Source: Chrysomallon squamiferum | Taxonomy: Eukaryota; Mollusca; Gastropoda; Neomphalida; Peltospiridae | Reading direction: 5' to 3' | NCBI GenBank assembly: GCA_012295275.1 | Contig: CM022677.1 | Coordinates: 14,575,594 to 14,639,593 of the forward strand | Length of the DNA stretch: 64,000 nt | In this document: in pieces, positions 13,959 through 61,900 of the stretch | Position numbering within the stretch: position 1 is the first letter of the stretch | How the letters are laid out: each line of letters opens with the position of its first letter | Position numbers and translations under genes: made by a program | Notes under the pieces: generated by a model | What the model saw: the letters and a program-made list of their open reading frames with translations, nothing else | Database searches by the model: none | What the model was told of the DNA's origin: nothing

Positions 13959-14925
13959 ATACCTAAGCTAACATTTATTTTTGTTATAAATACAACAAAC
14001 AGGAAAGTGAAAAAGTTATGTACTTAAGAAAAAACAGAGTTCCGTGTGGCTAACTAGATTGATTTCGACTGCCTATATTAATGTTGAGAAAATTGTTAGA
14101 TATCATTAGTTTAATTCAGCAAAGCAGTAAAATAGAAAAGCGTAGAAACCTCTACGAAAAAAGGATTTGATTCAAAACTACTAAAATAAGGTATAGTTTT
14201 CTTCAAAACGATTTCGTTTTTCACCCATTGATTTCAGTGTAAAAATGACGAAATAATTTTCAACTAAAGATTTCCAGTGACGTAGAAGATCGGCGGGAAA
14301 TATAAATATGTCGACTAGACATATCTCAAAAAGATCAAACCCAACGTTAGGCCTATAATTCCCACAAATATTTGTAACTACCGTCAATGTTTTGAACACA
14401 CACGCTCACGCACAGTCATGTACAAAGTTGGTTTTAAGCAAGATTTATTTCTATACTCTGGGATCATAATATCTATATGTAATATCATTTTAATGTGAAA
14501 ACGTAGTATAATAATTCTTCTAGTACTTCAACTGTTGTTATTTAAGCTGCTATTATTTAAACTCCAGCTGTTATTTAAGAAGCTTTACAAGACAACTTAG
14601 AAATGTAATAGATCTGTAATTATGAGCATTATTTTTAATCAACGTTAGAAAAAGAATGGGTAACGAATGCAAACAGGGCTACAGACATAGCTATTTTCAT
14701 TTGTCACCAGTAATCTATGTTTAATTACAACGGGAAGGTCTACGTTGTTCAAGGCCACCGAGAGACGTCCTGTCCGTCTCTTTACAATAATCTCTTACGT
14801 CTACAAATCGTGCTAGAAACATTATCACATAAATCATATTTATTTTTAATTTTCTCGAATAGAAAATTATATTCATTTTAACAAAATATAACTTAATGAC
14901 AATGGACAGATGCAATGACAGATGT

Positions 14926-14931
<6 letters not shown>

Positions 14932-14979
<48 letters not shown>
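14932..14979. repeat. (GA)n microsatellite
   Basis: A pure GA run, followed by GGGGGG. Absent at the matching site of the right arm near 46.1 kb. Confidence 0.97.
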
Positions 14980-14984
<5 letters not shown>

Positions 14985-17900
14985 TTGATATGACCCTGTC
15001 ATAGTTTGTATTCAGTTAATAAAAAATAAGGCGATATTTTTAATTAAGGATGCCGCTATTTACACTATAAATCACATAACATCACATAATTATAAACAAG
15101 TAAAAACAAGCTGTCAGTTTTACTTAAGGATAACGCTATTTACACTGATAATTTTAACACTGAGTTACAAAAATAAAGTATAATAACGTGTCCACTATTT
15201 CTGTAAAAGTTTATGCGGTAATTTAGTTACATTGTGTTACACAGAACATTCATAGTTAGAGAGTAGCGGTGACTCCAACCATTCAGTATAATCTGTGGAT
15301 CAAGCTAATAACATGTAATACTAGTTAGACAGTGATGACGTGTAAAAATTAAGCAAAGTAAAATTATCAGTGTAAATAGTGTATTTTCTTAATAAAAACA
15401 CAACGTTATTTTTATCTGGTTGCGATATTTTATTCCTGAATATTAACTGTACTTCTCAACTAGAAATATTAAGATGAATATGACTTCACATATAATTAAT
15501 TATTTGCTATTATTTAACAATGTAACCTCAGCTTTTCAATACATACCTGTCTAGAAAAAGAAAATCAATATTTAACTATCAGGTGCAGCTAAAATCTAAT
15601 CCAGTTTTGCTTAGTAACAAAGAACTGCAGTCTGGAAGGCCTCGTTATTTCTCAATTTCTCAATTTCACAACTATCCTTCTTGAATGAGATGATATTCAG
15701 TAAGTTATACGACAAATTATACTGAAAATTACAGGTATGATTTCACTTGTTAAATTCAGAAATATAGATGGAACTTCCGTGTTATAATGTTTTTATAAAT
15801 ATCTGTAGCTTTATATGTGTCGTGAAACATATATCGAGAAATAAAGAGAGCGCATTTATAAGCACCAGAACATTTTCACTGAAAAACAAAACAGCAGAAC
15901 TTTGTGCACTAACTTCAGATACCGCTACGAAGTGTCCGTTTTATTAAAAATAACAAGATATTATATTTTACTTTGCTAATTCTAAATCGTATAATAAAAA
16001 GGTGTAATTGTACTGTTCGTGAACTTAAATATTATATACACTACAGAAAATATTGATAACCACAGTTATCACTGAGAGTTATAAATGATAATTCTACATG
16101 CCGTTATAAAAAGAAAAATATGAGAATTAATTATATTTACAGTTTGTAGGTTAAGTATGTTGACAAATGTTAATCTCATATTTTATTAATATCGTATGTT
16201 TATATAAGGTTATATTTAAAAATATCAGATTTAATTCTCTTGAATCACGATAGTGTGTACTGATTAGCTGAGAACAAAGAATGTTATTTTATTATGCGAA
16301 GTTTATTTGTTTTCATTACATTCATTAAAAGGTTGTATAGTGTAATATACTTTACATTTCTTATTATACCTGAAGTTCTCTTACTACATTAGATATTTAT
16401 ATCCGCTCCCCAGTAATTATCAATGAGTCAGTGAAGCAGACAGTTGTCACAGTCCTCTGTCAACAGCTAAATAACCACACCAATAATAACACTTAATATT
16501 TTTATTTTTTATTTTGTTTTTATTTCTCTGTAAAAACGGAAGCTTCCTATATATGTCTGACGCTATTCTCTTAGTTTCATTAGAACTGTTCTGAGTGCGG
16601 ATATAAAAATTACTTCCAATTTTTTATTAGGCCTCGTAAAGTTATCAGAGAAATCAGATTTATTCTTAGTGTATTGTTTCTGTCGAGATAAAATCTAAAT
16701 ACTTCTTTTTAAAAAAATATATAATAATGATAATAATAATAGTAAACTGATTTATGAGAAATCGTGAACTTTTACAAAACCACAGTTAACTATAGAATAT
16801 CGATGTTTACACTGATAATGTTATCCATCGATAACTAAATATGTAGGGAGAGATGTAAATTGTGTCGCGGAATGTCATGTTACTGCGTCATAAAACAAAG
16901 TATCACATTATGACACTGAAAGGTGCACAGTTAATTTTCAGTAATATCAATACAATAATAAATACAGTATTCATCTAGCACTTCACGCGTTTCTGTATAG
17001 TCTTATTATTGTTAATAATAAAATAACTTATTATTAAAGACCATAATTTTTCAGTATATAAGGAGGACATTAATTTGGGGGAAAATATAATAATATTAAT
17101 ATCAAATGTCGTTTACAATAAAATATTTCCTTTTTCTGAAGCCTTGAATTGTTTTTGATCAGAGGACTGGTAAATTCATATCAAACGTTAAACAGATTTG
17201 TCGTAGCTGTGATGTTAGCTGAAAGCGTTTTTCAGGTTTCTGAATAAAGACCAAACATTAATTCTAAAAGTAAGGGTTCTTTTTAATATTATCACCTAAA
17301 AATGTAAAATGTAGTAGGAAAATGTATATACGCTCTGTGTGTGTGTGTGTGTGTGTGTCCATATCTATATTTCTGTATAAAAATGTAAACTTATCCTATT
17401 TAAATTTATTTTGTGAATATGAATGTGTAAGTAAAGTGCCTTTTGTAAACTGCGAATGTGAAATGAGGACTCAATATTTTTATTGTAATGTACGCAAACT
17501 AACAAAAACACGTTCCTTATGTCAGTTCAGGTATTTTGTTTTATGATTTACAGTCAGCGATCAAGTGGGTTAAGAGAATTTACATTATCCTCACTTGAAG
17601 AAATCACAGTTGTTTTCACTCGAGTGTTTACAATAATCATGTTTAAAAAGGATATATTTTCAAAGATAGGTTTGATTGAACAAATTTCTTGTTTAACCAA
17701 CACAGCAATTTTTGAGATTACGAGTTCAAGATTAATGTGTAATGAAAATTATAAACAACATTCACAAATTTATTTCATTGGAATATTTAGATTACTGTTC
17801 AGAAATGTGTTCAAATTTTTTAGAGATGTTAAATTGCATTAATAACAGAAAAACAAATTTATCAACAAAAATTCAAAAACAATTAAAACAAGGCAAACAA

Positions 17901-18102
17901 AAATGAAAACAACATTAATTTATTTTAATAAATATCAACATTAGTAATTATAACATATAAACAACAAGTGTAAGTTAAATAGATATTTCTCTGTACAGAA
18001 GACAGCAGGTACAGATCTGGGGTGTGGTGTGTTAACATATTTGCGTGATGAGAAAATACCCCAAATATTTTCTTGCTCCTCTACCATATAACACCTTCAA
18101 AT

Positions 18103-18297
18103 TATTTCAACCTTACTCTTGTGGTGTAAAAAAAACAAAGTTACACATACTGGCTTTTTGACCAAATGAACTTTAAGACTTATGCTCCTTCGGGCGCAGC
18201 CTAAGCACCTTCGGGGGTTAAAGTGCATTTGGTCAAAAAGCCAAAAGCCAGTATGTGTAACTTTGTTTTCTTTACACCACAAGAGTAAGTTTGAAAT
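18103..18297. repeat. Terminal-hairpin-like palindrome of a parvovirus-type element
   Basis: CTTACTCTTGTGGTGTAAA, ACAAAGTTACACATACTGGC, TTTTTGACCAAATG and ACTTTAA on the left are followed, after a 35-40 nt tip, by their reverse complements in reverse order on the right. The stem is nearly perfect for about 70 bp, with a 7-base AAAAGCC insertion in the right half as its main flaw. The tip carries two small self-pairing CC-TTCG-GG units (GCTCCTTCGGGCGC and CACCTTCGGGGGT), giving a branched end. A long stem with small ears at the tip is the known shape of parvovirus genome ends, where it primes replication. The capsid remnant begins 128 bp downstream. Confidence 0.8.
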
Positions 18298-18363
18298 ATA
18301 TTATGATTTTCACACATACATTTTTTTTCTTTGACATCATCAGTATGTCACATGACTAATTTT

Positions 18364-18377
18364 TAATATAAATATAC
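18364..18377 (+). promoter_or_regulatory. TATA-like box upstream of the capsid remnant
   Basis: AATATAAATATAC lies between the hairpin and the first ATG at 18426. A promoter in or beside the terminal repeat, reading inward, is usual for densoviruses. In AT-rich DNA this could be chance. Confidence 0.3.
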
Positions 18378-18425
18378 AACACTACTAAAATATTTCATTT
18401 GCAAATTAATATTGCATGAGATAAC

Positions 18426-20772
18426 ATGTTCACAGCTATTGGATTGATAGCAACCAAGCTAATTGAATCTGCATTTGACATATCAGTGGAATTTGCAACT
18501 GATGCAACATTAGAATCTACAGCACCAGCAGTAGCAGAAATCATTGGCGCTGATAATATATTTCTCGACGAAGCAACTGGATTAGCACAAACGGTTGTTG
18601 AATATTCAATAGAATCTATTGCAGATTATACTAAGTCTCAGATCTAAAAAGCAGTTGAAGAATTTCCTTACGCTGTGCAAGGAACTAGTTTATCTGACAA
18701 AAATATTATAAGCAAAGATAACGAACAACAGAAAGAAGAAGAGGAAGAAGAAGAGAACGTTACTTATATATTAATCGTTTTAATGCACAAAGGAAAACGT
18801 ATATTGGATAAAAAGGAAGTTACTCGTCTTTGGGCAATAGCATAATCTAAAGCATTAAATAATTACAACAGTTAAATGTGTCTAGGGATCAAGCTCAAGA
18901 AAACTGGTTACAGATTCGACGTAGATATCCAAATTTGCAAATACCGAATTCAGATTTGTATTCGGCAATAGATAATCTTTGACAAGAATATAACAATACT
19001 GAAGATTCGAATGAAGATGACCCTTTTGATTTGCCTTTATTCTCAGAAGACCACGAAAGACAAACAAAAGAAACAACGAAAAGACACACAGAAAAACCAA
19101 TTAATCCACCACCAAATAAGAAACGTAAAGAAAATCCACAGTTATCTACAACTGTATCTGAAGATGTCGAAAATACTGCAGCGAAAGGAACATATCTACA
19201 ACCAGAAGAAAGTCTGATGAATCCTGATTCGGTCACAGGAAACGAAGTCTGTCAAACTGGTGGTAGTGAAGCTGTGCAAGGAGCACTAATGTTCTCTATC
19301 ACAGATTTGGAGGAACAACAACAGCGGCTAATCCTAAGTACATCAAAGTAAAAAGAAAATTTAAACGTAAATTTACTAGTGTTTAAACTTCACTAAATTA
19401 AGAAAAGCAGAAATGAATGTTCTGAATAACGAAGTTCAAATAGGTTGGCCCAGTGCTATTGGAGATCCATCCGTATGTAAATGTACTTTTAATCATGTTG
19501 GTCATAATAATACCTTATTGGTATAAACAAGCTAGTACTAAACCTGAAGATTGGAATTTACCAGATGAATTTGTAGGTTATAGAATTAAAAAGTTTGGAT
19601 TCAATATTAATAATATGATGATTCATGTTTTAAACAATAATAAGGCTGATCATAATGAAGTTCCTGCTATAGCTCCACCAAATGCTAGAGTGTGGACTTT
19701 TACTGATATCAACAAAAAATACAGGTGATTATAGTCATAATAAGTTATTTAGAGATGAAGAATGTATGGATCAAACCGATGAGCGAAGTATCAAGGTACA
19801 ACCTGATAGAAATATATGTTTGCCAAGTGATATAGGAATGCAGGTTTAAAATAATGCTTGTACACTGAAAAATGTACATAACCGACACCTAATTATATTT
19901 ATGATTTAAAAAATCATGACGTTACAGAGAAACTGTAATTAGTGCAGGACGTTTGCTTTAGATTATGAATGTAAAAATGCTCCTCTAGTATAATTTCAGT
20001 CAAGTTGCTGGTAACGTAAAAAAGAGTAATTATTAATTTAGTAATGAAAGTGCAAAATATTTTGAAGTGTGGCCAACGGATGAAATAACAGTAACTGAAA
20101 TCACTCAACATCCAATGGGAAAAGCTATGACAGGTTATTTTAATCATCAGAATCAAAATGTTGATTATAAAGCATGTTTTCAGAATTTAGTTAGGTGAAC
20201 CAGCAATGGCAAATGATAGTAATCAAAATAAATTGATTTAAAAAGGTGTGACAGCAAATGATATAAGTGATCAAAATGTCAAAACAGAAATGGACGGAAG
20301 TCATCGTAGAACACATGAATGTAACAGACCACCAATGTTTTTGATAGGTATTTATCCGGATGTTGAAAGAACAACTAATGGTAACACGTTATTCTTTAAT
20401 TATCACGCTAATCTTCAAATAACGCATTATAGTGAAGTAGAGTTCATAGTTAGGACTGGTATGTGTCCTAAATACATTCCTATTGGACTTGGTGGTTGCC
20501 CTGGTGTTATGAGAGGAATGTTTATACTGTGGTTGCTGGTAAAAAAGATAATATAAAACATACAGAACAAGAAATTTTTTTATCTAAAAATTCTGAACAA
20601 TATTTCAAGAGAATTAAAAAATCTTGGCAGCTACGAATAGACGCTCCAATATGGGATAATTGGAATAGAAGAAAACCTAGACCGGCGGTTGTTTTGGCCT
20701 ATACATGGTGTTTATGGTGATAGGACTGTCCCTATCGTTGGAAAAGAAAATGATTGGAAATATCCTTTATAA
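18426..20772 (+). pseudogene. Endogenous parvovirus (densovirus-like) capsid gene, broken
   Basis: A run of open segments in changing frames together has the layout of a parvoviral structural protein. 18426-18647: an alanine-rich, amphipathic N-terminal piece. 18648-18845: an acidic piece with an E run. 18868-19351: a Ser/Thr/Glu-rich linker with a PPPNKKRK basic nuclear-signal-like motif and an internal TGA at 18980. 19520-19728: the start of the capsid barrel (PYWYKQAS, PEDWNLP, GYRIKKFGF). 19718-19849 and 20058-20198: further barrel segments. 20248-20556: PPMFLIGIYPDVE with an aliphatic strand after it. The last short frame, containing GVYGDRTVPI, stops at 20770-20772. I count at least three in-frame stops and about five frame changes, so no capsid can be made. 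No phospholipase A2 motif is visible near the start, unlike many densoviruses. The host-like AT bias and the decay indicate an old insertion. Confidence 0.8.
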
Positions 20773-21000
20773 ATTTCATTAAAATTAATTTTATTAATAA
20801 CTATATTGTTATTTAATACAAAATTAATTTATTATATATTACATAAAATAAGGTTTAAACGAAGAGCTTAGTTTTGGACAATATTTAATTCTTCATTATT
20901 AATACCTTTTAAATGGAATACAATTTATTCTATTTTTATTTTTATTTATTATTATTATTATTGACAAAGGAAGATGTTATTTTAGTGATGAGCTTATCTA
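20773..21000. other. AT-rich spacer after the viral remnant; no replication gene
   Basis: No helicase-like or rolling-circle frame is visible on either strand here or in the next 2 kb, and no second hairpin resembling the one at 18.1 kb was found. The insertion therefore appears to be the capsid half only. Confidence 0.5.
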
Positions 21001-21008
21001 TATTTAGT

Positions 21009-21109
21009 TGACGTCAGAAAGTCGAAGCTGATTGGTCAATTTGAATATTATTACGTCATTAGCAACTAGACAATTAGCAACAAAAGTCAGCTGCAGTTGT
21101 GTTTATAAA
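21009..21109 (+). promoter_or_regulatory. Promoter-like cluster: CRE, inverted CCAAT, CRE-like, TATA
   Basis: TGACGTCA (21009-21016), ATTGG (21031-21035), TTACGTCA (21051-21058) and TATAAA (21104-21109) lie in order within 100 bp, with spacing normal for an RNA polymerase II promoter. Such a set is unlikely in random AT-rich DNA. The predicted start, 25-30 bp after TATAAA, falls at about 21130-21138, on top of the first ATG of the small ORF below. Confidence 0.55.
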
Positions 21110-21129
21110 GCGAACAAAAAGTAGAAAAA

Positions 21130-21315
21130 ATGAAGTGGTTGTCTTGGTGTTGTCCATGTGTCAAGCGTCGAAGCCGCCAAAACGCTAGTACGAGCTTCTC
21201 AGAAAGAACAAAGAGCTGTGCAATATTCTCACAGATTTATTGTATTAGAACGAAACAAACATTTGATTTGTCTGTCAGTCTGCTTTCCTTAGGTTCTTCT
21301 ACAATAGAATACTGA
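21130..21315 (+). CDS. Small cysteine-rich ORF downstream of the promoter-like cluster
   Basis: This 61-codon ORF begins MKWLSWCCPCVKRRSRQNAS: a short aromatic/cysteine head, then a basic stretch. The rest is Ser/Thr-rich. A head with CCPC next to basic residues could be palmitoylated and membrane-bound, but that is only a resemblance. A second frame overlapping 21170-21290 is also open (RFIVLERNKHLICL), so a frameshift or a spliced gene is possible. It lies 360 bp beyond the viral remnant and could be viral, host or neither. I do not recognise it. Confidence 0.3.
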   Translation: MKWLSWCCPCVKRRSRQNASTSFSERTKSCAIFSQIYCIRTKQTFDLSVSLLSLGSSTIEY

Positions 21316-39000: not shown

Positions 39001-39895
39001 AAACGAATAACCTCTCGGATAGAGTTATGTCCCCTTTGTTGCATTTTCCTCCTTGATTATTCAGGTTAAAACGAACATATTCCTATATAGAGTTATCTCC
39101 CTATAATCAGGTTAAAACGAACATATTCTTATACAGTTATCTTCCTTTAATATGAAAACGAATAACCTCTCGGATAGAGGTATCTCCCCTTTGGTACATT
39201 TTTCTCCTTGATTATTCAGGTTAAAACGAACATATTCCTATATAGAGTTATGTCCCCTTTGTTACATTTTTCTCCTTGATTATTCAGGTTAAAACGAACA
39301 TATTCCTATATAGAGTTATGTCCCCTTTGTTACATTTTTCTCCTTGATTATTCAGGTTAAAACGAACATATTCCTATATAGAGTTATGTCCCCTTTGTTA
39401 CATTTTTCTCCTTGATTATTCAGGTTAAAACGAACATATTCCTATATAGAGTTATGTCCCCTCTGTTACATTTTTCTCCTTGATTATTCAGGTTAAAACG
39501 AACATATTCCTATATAGAGTTATGTCCCCTTTGTTAGATTTTTCTCCTTGATTATTCAGGTTAAAACGAACATATTCCTATATAGAGTTATGTCCCCTCT
39601 GTTACATTTTTCTCCTTGATTATTCAGGTTAAAACGAACATATTCCTATATAGAGTTATGTCCCCTTTGTTACATTTTTCTCCTTGATTATTCAGGTTAA
39701 AACGAACATATTCCTATATAGAGTTATGTCCCCTTTGTTACATTTTTCTCCTTGATTATTCAGGTTAAAACGAACATATTCCTATATAGAGTTATGTCCC
39801 CTCTGTTACATTTTTCTCCTTGATTATTCAGGTTAAAACGAACATATTCCTATATAGAGTTATCTCCCTTTGACATGAAAACGAATATCCTCTCG
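39001..39895 (+). repeat. 68-bp satellite array with GAGTTATGTCCCC motif
   Basis: About twelve tandem units of TTTTTCTCCTTGATTATTCA GGTTAAAACGAACATATTCC TATATAGAGTTATGTCCCCT TTGTTACA. TCTCCTTG occurs at 39203, 39271 and 39339, giving a period of exactly 68 bp. Central units are almost identical (CTCTG or CTTTG, TACA or TAGA). The first and last units are different and carry AAAACGAATA(A/T)CCTCTCGGAT, so variant monomers flank a homogenised core. Confidence 0.97.
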
Positions 39896-41588: not shown

Positions 41589-42165
41589 CAGTGATTCTCA
41601 ACCAGTGTGCCGCGGCGCACAGGTCTGCCACGAGATCTTCCTATGTGAGCCGCACAATTTTGTACGGCACACTAAGAAAATGCGAAAAACCACTTGATCC
41701 CAAAATAAAACAAACAGTAGAATGCAAGGTAAAAACGAAAATATTCTCACTTCAACAGACAAGTTAGTTGCCCTCAAAAAGAAAATAGTGATTTGGGGAA
41801 AAAAGAGCAGTCACTGTCAACCTTTATATGTTCCCTCTATTGCGTTCTACCTGCGTTAGAGAAGTGATCCCTATTGTGTTTACTCATCTGACAGCCCTAG
41901 ACGAAAGCATCAACAATAAATTTCCGTCATTAAAGACAGAAAAGTACTATTGGATTAGAGATCCTTTCATAAATCATTCTTCCAACATTGAACTTGAGTT
42001 ACAGGAAGAAGAAGAATTGGCCGACCTTTCTAATGACCTTAAAATTAAAACATTCGACTCTGCCCATTGATTCGTTTTGGATTTCAATACAAGAGGTGTA
42101 TCCCATATTATGTAAAAGAGTTTTAGCAATTTTATTACAATTTTCAACTCCTTATATATGTGAAT
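41589..42165 (+). mobile_element. hAT transposon remnant with transposase C-terminus
   Basis: CAGTGATTCTCAACCAGTGT, followed by GCCGCGGCGCAC, is the terminal sequence typical of Charlie-like hAT elements. About 240 bp later an open frame gives transposase blocks: YYWIRDPFINHSSNIELELQ and EEEELADLSNDLKIKTF in one frame, then SFWISIQEVYPILCKRVLAI and LLQFSTPYICE in another. These are the known end part of ZBED5/SCAND3-like hAT transposases (LS.KFWI....YP.LS.KAL..LL.F.T.YLCE), with a frameshift at about 42060. The BED finger and the catalytic half are absent, and there is no matching right end within the window. Confidence 0.85.
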
Positions 42166-42168
42166 TAG

Positions 42169-42300
42169 GCAACATCAAAAAGTTGTGTAGTTGTAGTGAA
42201 ACATGTGGTAGAGGCATTAGAATAAGATTTGAGATACGAACATGCACAGATACGAAGAGGAATCTTCAAGAAGCATGTGAAACAAATGTCTTGTGTCCAG
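42169..42300 (+). CDS. Thrombospondin type-1 (TSP1) domain exon
   Basis: A possible acceptor AATTAG and a donor CCAG followed by GTAACA bound 132 bp, exactly 44 codons. The exon starts and ends in phase 1, the usual arrangement of shuffled TSP1 exons. The peptide has CSCSETCGRGIRIRF, RTC, EAC and LCP, the cysteine and arginine pattern of a TSP1 repeat, an extracellular module in adhesion and matrix proteins. The expected N-terminal W-x-x-W part is missing or replaced by KKLC. It is in the same frame as the last hAT block, with no stop between, and the mollusc gene it belongs to is outside the window or lost. Confidence 0.7.
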
Positions 42301-42309
42301 GTAACAAGC

Positions 42310-42530
42310 AATAATTATACTTCTCTGCCTACAAAAGTGAAAAATGACTCAAATAATATTAAGGATTTCTCTTAAAAAACAACAAAAAAAAAACAACATA
42401 AACAACAAAAATATTCAGTTGTTAATGATTTAGTGGAACTTTATGGATAATGAATTGCATTAGGTATACTGATAACCACAACAGTAAAGAATTAAACAGC
42501 ACACTTCTAAAGTTATAAAGCATGTTTTAT
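42310..42530. other. AT-rich stretch after the TSP1 exon
   Basis: Intron-like, with an A run near 42384. No further exon found. Confidence 0.4.
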
Positions 42531-42534
42531 ATTC

Positions 42535-43560
42535 CATTTATATATCAGTAGTATGGTTGAAATAACAGTGACAGATTAGTAGTAATATCAGTAGTATGGT
42601 TGAAATAACAGTGACAGATTAGTCGTAATATCAGCTGAAATATTAGTAATATTAATGACAGATTAGTAGTAATATCAGTAGTATGGTTGAAATATTAGTA
42701 TAATTAATGACAGATTAGTAGTAATACCAGTAGTATGGTTGAAATAACTGACATAGTAGTAGTAATATCAGTGATATATCTGAAGTAGCAGTGACATATT
42801 AATAGTAATATCAGTAATAGCTCTGAAGTAGCAGTCACAGATTAGTGGTAATATTAGAAGTATGGCTGATGTAACAGTGACAGATTAGTAATAATAGCAT
42901 AGTATTGCTGAAGTAACTGATAGATTAGTAATAATAGCAGTGGTATTGCTGAAGTAAAAGTGATTAGTAGTAATATCAGTAGTATCGCTGAATAACAATG
43001 GTAGATTAGAAACAATAACAGTAGTATCGCTGAAGTAAAGTGATATATTACTAGTAATACAGTAGTATCGCTGAAGTAACAGTGACAGATTACTAGTAAT
43101 ACAGTAGTATCGCTGAAGTAACAGTGACAGATTACTAGTAATAGCAGTAATATTGCTGAAGTAACAGAGGCAGATTAGCAGTAATATCGATAGTATCACT
43201 GAACTAACATTGACATATCAGTAGTATCACTAAAGTAAGTGGTGATAACAGTAGTATCGCTGAAGTAACACTTGTAGATTAGTAGTAATATCAGTAGTAT
43301 CACTGATGTAATACAGGCAGATTAGTAGTAATAACAATAGTATTCACGCAGTAACTATGACAGATTAGTAGTAATATCAAAAGTATCGATGAAGTAACTG
43401 ACAGATTAATAGTAATAGAAGAAGTATTGCTGAAGTAACAGTGACACATTAGTAGTACCAGAAGTAACAGTGAGAGATTAGTAGTAGTGGCAATAGTATC
43501 GATAAAGAAACGGCGGCAGATTAGTAGAAATAGCAGTAACTTAGTGGTAATATCAGTAAT
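42535..43560 (-). repeat. 42-bp satellite with AGTAGTATCGCTGAAGTAAC units
   Basis: Units such as AGTGACAGATTACTAGTAAT ACAGTAGTATCGCTGAAGTA AC repeat. The starts at 43081 and 43123 give 42 bp, and outer units are more diverged. In reverse complement it resembles the 42-bp array at 10.1-10.6 kb in period, in words (ATACT.CT..TATTAC) and in lying next to the GCCGTCGT repeat. The minus-strand Leu/Ser/Thr/Tyr frames across it are artefacts. Confidence 0.9.
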
Positions 43561-60339: not shown

Positions 60340-61900
60340 GACTGAAGATTATCTTCTCCCAGACAAGCCTGAATTAGCCTTGAAAAAGTAGCATTACACA
60401 AACCCATGTGCATCGTGGTGTATTCAAAAAGACCCGATGAACCAGTTCGAAATACAGTCTTGGAAATGTCTTCCTCTTCCATGGCACACTGAAGAAATTC
60501 ATGTGCTAGATCGATGGAAGAAAAATACTTGGCCCCTTTCATCTGAGGTGGTAATTTTATATTTAATGATGCTACAGTATCCTATATCATGACCACCTTT
60601 ACTAAAACATCATCCTACGTACAGGTTAAGTTATCCCGAATATCCAACTGGTCAAAAATGAAATCATCGCTGGAAACCTTTCCAACCACAGAATCACAGC
60701 TCTGCAATTCTACACTGAATGGCTCACGTGCAGATGTTGAATTATTGTGTAAATGCTCAACTCTGGTGCGTGGCTGTAAATAAACGTCCTTCTGACTGAC
60801 ATTCGTGATTTCAACAGGCGTCAATCCATTTGCCACTATAACCAACTTTATGCTCGCAATAACATACTTTGGCAAACTGCCATCTGCCTCTGAAAGACAA
60901 TCTAAAACAACAGTTCTATGAATGCCTCCAGGGTACCTCCTTGTTGAGCCAGGAACAATCTGCCCAGATCCAGCTGGGATTCGTACAGGTTTCTTACCAG
61001 CAACCCGGACGTACCCAATAATATTCTCAGAGCTACCAGTATTAGACGTTCCAGATGCTGAAATCTCCTGACAATACAGAGCCAAAACCGTCACCAATTT
61101 TTTCTTAACCGCCTATTACTCCAGGTAAACAGTGTTTCCTCAGATTATTGGGAGAATATTGTAAATCGTTTACCACCAAAAAAAAAAAAAAAAAAAAAAA
61201 AATCGGTTGTACCTAAAATATGCAGATCAATTTCAATGTAGGCTTTAAATGAAATGCTGTGACCACTTGCTGCCGAAACATTAACAAAAGGAGATAAATC
61301 AAACATTTCTCTAACTTTGTCTTTAAAATGATTGTTGCAAAATGTTTCGGTGATGGTAGAAACTTCAGCACCGGTATCTAAGCGACATCTTACATTTGAA
61401 TTAAACATTTTATTAATAGGCTGCGGACATCTGCCGATAGCTTTCTGAAGGACCAAGTCAGTTTTCAGATTTTTACAGCAGGCTCTAATCGTTTAAATGC
61501 TGCGACCATTGCCATTACGTTGCCTGGGACAGTCTCTTTGAAGATGGCCCAAACGACCACATTTGAAGCAGGCACCATTTCCTCCCTGGCTATTAGTGAA
61601 ATCTGAATTACATTTTGGAGAGGAATGCCTTTGATTAGTTTGAAAATGGTTGGGAGTCAGAAACACTAACTGGAGTTCTTGTTACTGAATGGCAAAAAGT
61701 GTCAGCAAATGCAGGACAGCTTCTCATATGCCTCTCCAACATGTCTCCCTTCCGTTGAAGTAATAACAGAATACTGGCTGAACTGGATTCATGAACAGAT
61801 ATCTCCAAAGTCAAAAGACGACCACGTTTATGGCAATGAATAACCAAATCTCTCAGCTTGATTGCTTGCACTTCTTTCAGAGAACAGCGAATTTATTCTT
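60340..61900 (-). mobile_element. Ty3/gypsy retrotransposon remnant (gag-protease-RT, deleted)
   Basis: Read on minus in order. Gag part, 61871-61635 (HCHKRGRLLTLEISVHESSS). CCHC zinc knuckle CFKCGRLGHLQRDC at about 61570-61530. Aspartic protease with LDTGAEVSTI at 61383-61352 and, after it, the ASGHSI block. Linker with IIGYVRVAGKKPVRIPAGSG at 61100-60615. Reverse transcriptase core KYFSSIDLAHEFLQCAMEEE, KTVFRTGSSGLFEYTTMHMG and LCNATFSRL, 60590-60335. This is the gag-PR-RT order of Ty3/gypsy. Two deletions are clear. The RT N-terminal fingers (about 100 residues) are missing between linker and SSIDLA, and the element stops after GEDNLQSL, just before the catalytic YVDD motif. RNase H, integrase and LTRs are absent. 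A run of 30 or more A on plus (61171-61202) interrupts the protease region. It cannot be active. Confidence 0.92.

Follow-up and report, generated by a model that had tools for sequence, protein, structure and literature searches.

Does a long palindrome next to a broken, capsid-like gene in a gastropod genome mark the remains of a hairpin-ended virus, and if so, of which kind? A sequence-only reading of the locus had taken it for an endogenous element of the ambisense densovirus type, and had named an unrelated miniature transposable element (MITE) as the alternative. The window, i.e. the whole stretch of 64,000 nucleotides analysed here, corresponds to C13:14575594-14639593 of the Chrysomallon squamiferum genome, which comprises 404.6 Mb in 22 contigs. 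The features of the locus are listed in Table 1; L numbers designate sister loci.

Table 1. Features of the element and its immediate surroundings (window coordinates)
Feature	Position	Strand	Remarks
Sequence upstream of hairpin	14001..18066		blocks 76-93% identical to sequence at other C13 loci; the comparison began at 14001
Terminal-type hairpin	18097..18306		left arm 18097-18176, tip 18177-18217, right arm 18218-18306
Hairpin tip	18177..18217	+	41 nt, two CCTTCGGG copies; branching not significant
TATAAATA	18367..18374	+	possible VP promoter, upstream of the first ATG (18426)
VPn, upstream open segment	18426..18782	+	shares its frame with the VP start; interrupted by one stop (18645); PLA2 not matched
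Broken capsid-like VP gene	18783..20772	+	matches to P0001, P0002 and an open segment of L027
Post-VP stretch	20773..21181	+	common to the C13:12.36 Mb copy (L029); no NS match
ATTAAA	20778..20783	+	after the VP stop; possible polyadenylation signal

The terminal-type hairpin

The palindrome had been described as a nearly perfect stem, and this description was confirmed. Alignment of the two arms showed 3 mismatches, i.e. 3 of the ~80 pairs differ, and gaps of 1, 1 and 7 nt, with a score of 124 compared to at most 29 in 300 mononucleotide shuffles. Folding of nucleotides 18103-18297, proposed earlier as a check, yielded a dG of -72.3 kcal/mol, compared to -20.1 +/- 3.0 for 200 shuffled sequences (z about -17.5), none of which was equally stable. 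Its complementarity of 96% is the highest among ten inverted repeats of the window (at least 35 nt, within 400 nt), the other nine being 70-89% complementary and mostly AT-rich or simple repeats. No second copy of the hairpin was found within the 64-kb window.

The tip does contain the two mini-hairpin sequences that had been noticed, but the branched fold attributed to them did not hold up, as 45 of 200 shuffles of the region 18168-18226 and 138 of 200 shuffles of the tip itself folded as well or better. Since shuffled sequences so often match its stability, the branching has no statistical support and was rejected as more than a chance feature.

The capsid-like gene and its upstream segment

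The first ATG is located 128 nt past the end of the right hairpin arm as folded (position 18298), in agreement with the distance first reported for the start of the broken gene. Per 128 bp of this window, 0.04 occurrences of the octamer in the intervening segment would be expected, and 0.41 of the looser motif TATAWAW. The plus strand contains 17 breaks between 18422 and 20770 and the other strand 22, compared to 32.9 +/- 2.9 in 500 shuffles, the lowest of which had 25. As fewer than 17 breaks also occur in 18 of 454 sliding stretches taken along the window, a low number of breaks alone does not prove a gene, and the relatives are the stronger evidence.

A search with the window piece 19519-19725 retrieved P0001 (551 amino acids; E value 8.5e-30, 76% identity), the sole protein with an E value of 10 or less among 10 candidates. 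P0001 in turn retrieved one further protein, P0002 (743 amino acids; E value 1.2e-34, 26% identity), among 4487 candidates. Residues 1-548 of P0001 are colinear with window positions 18783-20364, with shifting frames, and P0002 matches the window at 19504-19722 and 20326-20535, so that the broken gene is borne out by colinear relatives. Its C-terminus is covered by P0002 up to 20535 and by the L027 open segment up to 20757. The C-terminal window piece gave no match in the protein database at an E value of 10 or less (8 candidates), although the last 41 residues of P0001 match this piece at 76%; since the search missed P0001, this null result is no proof of absence.

The segment at 18426-18782, named VPn, precedes the start of both P0001 and P0002, and its first 73 residues have relatives between the hairpin and VP in sister copies. 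A likeness of VPn to a polyomavirus minor capsid protein was considered, but found no Pfam or PDB support and was discarded.

Profile searches did not assign VP to a family. The match to a parvovirus capsid profile for which the sequence-only reading had proposed to search was not found, as none of the window pieces tested gave a significant Pfam match; three window pieces gave none in PDB, and P0001 and P0002 gave none in Pfam, PDB or profile searches. The absence of a phospholipase motif, noticed from the start, was upheld by the lack of a PLA2 Pfam match in the window pieces tested, P0001 and P0002. No exogenous relative was found in viral_contigs with three window pieces, P0001, P0002 or the P0001/P0002 alignment, and a genome_contigs search with P0002 found nothing. 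Two structure models had pLDDT values of 43.9 and 34.7, too poor to use. The name "capsid" was therefore given not on the basis of a profile match, but because the gene adjoins the replication gene NS in sister copies and is the second large gene of the unit; VP would accordingly code for the capsid protein.

Other features of the window

The region 20990-21290 appears promoter-like by eye (GACGTCA, ATTGG and TTTATAAAG) and is followed by a short open segment beginning with MKWLSWCCPCVKRRS; up to position 21181 it is common to the C13:12.36 Mb copy, and it has no significant Pfam match. An open segment at 41988-42311 gave a weak match to the thrombospondin type 1 domain, with 17.9 bits for a cut-off of 21.6. 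Two open segments on the minus strand at 60615-61456, one of which contains DTGAEVSTI, a motif that we take to resemble a retroelement protease, have no significant Pfam match. Long tandem arrays are located at 39174-39872 and 42542-43457; their units measure 68 bp (97% match, 10.3 copies) and 43 bp. A cephalopod host, at first suggested by base composition and simple repeats, is unsupported.

Related hairpins in the genome

A search of the same genome with the hairpin gave 103 listed matches from the 35 best-scoring candidates. At least 101 of them are on C13, which represents 7.0% of the assembly, and they merge into at least 33 places in at least 18 clusters, located, among the matches listed, between 2.48 and 15.17 Mb of the 28.28-Mb contig. 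The two matches on C1 correspond to one place on both strands, again among the matches listed. This preference for C13 is established for the hairpin as query.

The C1 place and 15 of the 18 C13 clusters, i.e. all but those at 13.33, 13.63 and 15.17 Mb, were inspected, those at 14.54 and 13.41 Mb as 3-kb stretches only. VP, VPn or NS was found beside the hairpin in 12 of the 15 C13 clusters, including that of the window, and VPn and VP adjoin the C1 hairpin; the clusters at 2.48, 6.10 and 10.40 Mb had no VP or NS in the stretch read. Beside these related hairpins, VP, VPn and NS stand in a consistent order. Occurrence of the palindrome at many loci without capsid sequence had been named as the observation that would turn the element into a MITE. 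The number of places (at least 34 in the genome) and the three clusters lacking viral genes in the stretch read agree with an unrelated MITE that happens to lie beside a host or viral gene, but the regular presence of viral genes at the other clusters inspected and at C1 indicates a parvovirus-like element instead, and makes the MITE scarcely conceivable.

Nine of 13 chosen hairpin regions fold with z < -8, and the other four (L003, L029, L023 and L022) contain only half a hairpin or fragments. Preservation of the hairpin, which had been considered unusual, is therefore common among the copies, and the passages of PMC12297876 and PMC6232428 that were compared already report hairpin remnants in endogenous elements. 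The half-hairpins of L003, L029 and C13:10959310 in L023 all begin close to the tip, at position 80 of the 195-nt query, which suggests a deletion at the centre of the palindrome before duplication.

Replication genes in sister copies

Open segments beside the hairpin in L007 and L008 match Parvo_NS1 (PF01057) with 30.0 and 30.1 bits (cut-off 20), and also match DUF5906 just below its cut-off. They are the two matches of a first Pfam scan of eight open segments; in a second scan of ten segments the best score was 19.5 bits, obtained for a third segment and lying under the Parvo_NS1 cut-off of 20. In all, three of about 13 scanned NS-region segments match Parvo_NS1, counting the one at 19.5 bits. 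L017:1749-2480 and L030:4439-5212 overlap NS matches, yet match no parvovirus family in Pfam, and two NS segments compared to PDB found nothing.

The motif G-S-H-[VI]-H (HxH), which we take to be that of an HUH nuclease, was detected in N-terminal NS segments, namely in five of nine segments examined (L017, L019, L021, L027 and L028); the other four lie elsewhere or end before that position. L007 and L008 are not among the five, but the L028 segment shares its unit with the 19.5-bit match, and the helicase parts of the HxH-bearing copies match those of L007 and L008. The NS region also contains GESDSGKT, presumably a Walker A motif. An NS1 with a superfamily-3 (SF3) helicase and a nuclease motif is found in sister copies only, and no NS match was found in the window copy. 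L027:4247-5593 (minus strand) is a single open segment of 449 amino acids running from the VP C-terminus into the N-terminal region of NS without a stop, with the HxH motif at residue 255.

Gene order and strand

VP and NS adjoin, with no hairpin match separating them, at ten mapped places (L013, L014, L016/17, L018/19, L020/21, L025, three units in L026-L028, and L030). In all ten, VP precedes NS and one strand carries both genes. L013 has a 99.2% duplicate in L025, the genes being fragmentary in both, and L016/17, L018/19, L020/21 and L030 duplicate one another at 93-98%, so that the ten represent about six distinct units. At L023/L024, VP and NS face each other across hairpins, which marks an inverted junction and not a unit of ambisense type. 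Measured from start to start, adjacent hairpin places of one cluster are separated by 2.3-6.6 kb, and those of the seven mapped units that contain both genes by 3.7-5.4 kb.

Since a hairpin match would miss an unlike hairpin, the gaps between VP and NS were also folded. Five stretches of 251 nt gave z values of -1.8 to +2.0, i.e. no strong hairpin, and none of 160 overlapping 200-nt stretches from eight of the ten gaps had z < -8, the lowest value being -3.9 (20 rough shuffles per stretch; there is no gap to fold at L013 and L025, and the 55-nt end of one L018 gap was excluded). The statement on hairpin junctions rests on folding; a separate palindrome finder missed hairpins visible in the folds. 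Where the VP and NS matches border on shared surroundings, a hairpin is present on the VP side in the window and on the NS side in L017, L018, L021, L026 and L030. The order is hairpin-VP-NS-hairpin, partly in head-to-tail arrays.

The ambisense densovirus layout proposed at the outset agrees with a VP gene reading inward from a hairpin 128 nt away. It is contradicted by the sister copies, in which NS follows VP on one strand at ten of ten adjacencies, with no strong hairpin in the eight gaps folded, and by the lack of a Denso_VP4 or PLA2 match in the window pieces tested, P0001 and P0002. A small opening is left by the fact that NS adjoins a VP of the window's own group in one unit only (L027/L028), in which NS lies behind a truncated window-like VP and both are on one strand; an ambisense remnant is nevertheless very improbable.

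The same arrays could also derive from a circular or concatemer-forming element replicated by an HUH protein, with the hairpin as the origin between NS and VP and the arrays as rolling-circle products or joined circles. In the head-to-tail arrays hairpins indeed lie between the end of NS and the start of VP, none being detected between VP and NS. Hairpin copies often occur, however, in clusters of two or more instead of singly (L009, L021), the helicase of NS matches Parvo_NS1, and hairpins stand at the borders on both the VP and the NS sides, although nicking at an origin could give a similar picture. We regard such an element as unlikely. The hairpins outside VP and NS, together with the nuclease motif and helicase of NS, would make the replication scheme of parvoviruses, with a linear genome, the most likely one.

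Copy groups, duplication and decay

The copies form at least two groups. That of the window includes L003 (94.1% identity to the window over 1648 nt), L029 (87.7% over 2757 nt) and part of L028 (94.0% over 749 nt), and the other matches of at least 700 nt to the window's element are 64-71% identical. The similarity extends beyond the element, as the window sequence between 14001 and 18066 is shared in blocks, for example with L023 (81-93%), L029 (83-91%) and L003 (87%). Elsewhere, blocks of up to 6.7 kb reaching past VP and NS are 90-99% identical. These shared surroundings point to intrachromosomal duplication.

Multiplication by its own replication proteins, as a parvovirus-derived mobile element, might have acted beyond chromosomal duplication and would be compatible with the viral origin preferred below. 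Diverged units do lie side by side in the arrays, with about 64-78% nucleotide identity between groups, and many copies are found on one chromosome. We nonetheless hold this contribution to be quite improbable, as the long shared stretches are explained by chromosomal duplication and nearly all listed hairpin matches are on one contig.

Among 12 C13 spans measured, that of the window VP has the highest density of breaks, 14 in 1583 nt (8.8 per kb); the other 11 have 0-6.3 breaks per kb and the C1 span of 1221 nt has none, these counts covering a subset of the VP matches. The remnant in the window is heavily decayed and lacks NS; less broken copies exist. Having neither an NS match nor an intact VP frame, the window copy is most likely inert.

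Origin of the element and comparison with known viruses

The locus probably derives, as a remnant in the germline, from a parvovirus-like single-stranded DNA virus with relatives arranged as hairpin-VP-NS-hairpin and duplicated on C13. These relatives would have had a ~5-kb unit flanked by hairpins on both sides. A capsid-type gene would have read inward from one of them; downstream of it, and on its strand, an NS gene for a protein with an HxH nuclease motif and an SF3 helicase would have extended to the other hairpin. The hairpins may have primed rolling-hairpin replication and been nicked by NS in its course. Viral DNA would then have entered chromosome C13, in places as head-to-tail arrays, and chromosomal duplications would have copied these arrays with their surroundings. 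The window copy would have retained one hairpin and VP, and be dead. What is kept of the first interpretation is a decayed endogenous element of parvovirus type, in which a terminal-type hairpin adjoins a capsid-like gene and no phospholipase is recognisable; its ambisense layout, capsid profile and branched tip are not supported.

The element resembles Parvoviridae (PF01057) in its HxH motif upstream of an SF3 helicase, its Parvo_NS1 match, terminal-type hairpins, ~5-kb units and separate VP and NS genes. It differs in that VP is upstream of NS on the same strand and matches no parvovirus profile. According to the passages of PMC6521121 and PMC7912424 compared, NS is the left and VP the right ORF in Parvoviridae, and in densoviruses the left ORF is ns and the right one cap, the latter on the opposite strand in the ambisense ones (PMC6521121). 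Because the order found here is a different one, the element is called parvovirus-like rather than a member of the family.

As far as the passages compared describe them, several known systems share part of these features. In the Bemisia tabaci ambidensovirus, VP reads inward from a terminal hairpin and endogenous pieces with a hairpin remnant are reported (PMC12297876). Ambisense Densovirinae, however, have NS and VP on opposite strands and a VP with PLA2 (PMC12297876), whereas one strand is used here and PLA2 gave no match. Hamaparvovirinae, or chapparvoviruses, likewise have a VP without PLA2 and endogenous invertebrate copies, but are monosense with NS first and a VP described as short (PMC6631224, PMC7912424), in contrast to a VP in first position with a relative, P0002, of 743 amino acids. 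The Acheta domesticus segmented densovirus (PMC10267136) illustrates that parvovirus gene arrangements can change and that capsids can do without PLA2; it consists of two segments, whereas VP and NS adjoin in one unit here.

In the portions of PMC12297876 compared, the terminal hairpin of parvoviruses primes second-strand synthesis and is nicked by Rep, and an integrated near-complete flip-flop palindrome is reported; partial hairpin-like palindromes are mentioned for a pit viper endogenous element in the part of PMC6232428 compared. Parvovirus-related sequences are recorded from molluscs and other invertebrates (PMC5013282, in the portion compared). Retained hairpins in endogenous copies are thus already known, whereas the gene order, the unmatched capsid-type family and the one-chromosome arrays look new. 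A VP-first parvovirus is not mentioned in the titles and abstract beginnings of the 8 of 22 papers listed by a narrow word search, and no paper was found by such searches for endogenous parvovirus with cephalopod or endogenous densovirus with octopus, which does not prove absence.

Tentatively, and as a possibility that the present evidence leaves in near balance, the element may represent an undescribed hairpin-ended parvovirus-like lineage with the order hairpin-VP-NS-hairpin on one strand, whose capsid-type protein would belong to no known family and whose N-terminal segment lacks PLA2; the head-to-tail arrays of its endogenous copies would make one chromosome an archive of several viral lineages. 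If the gene order is right, replication of the parvovirus type would be compatible with a layout absent from the literature passages compared, which would bear on the shuffling of NS and VP cassettes in the evolution of single-stranded DNA viruses. The arrays and the near confinement of the hairpin matches to part of one chromosome provide a test case for the capture and multiplication of viral DNA in the germline, for which the hairpin arms and the duplicated flanks may serve as independent clocks.
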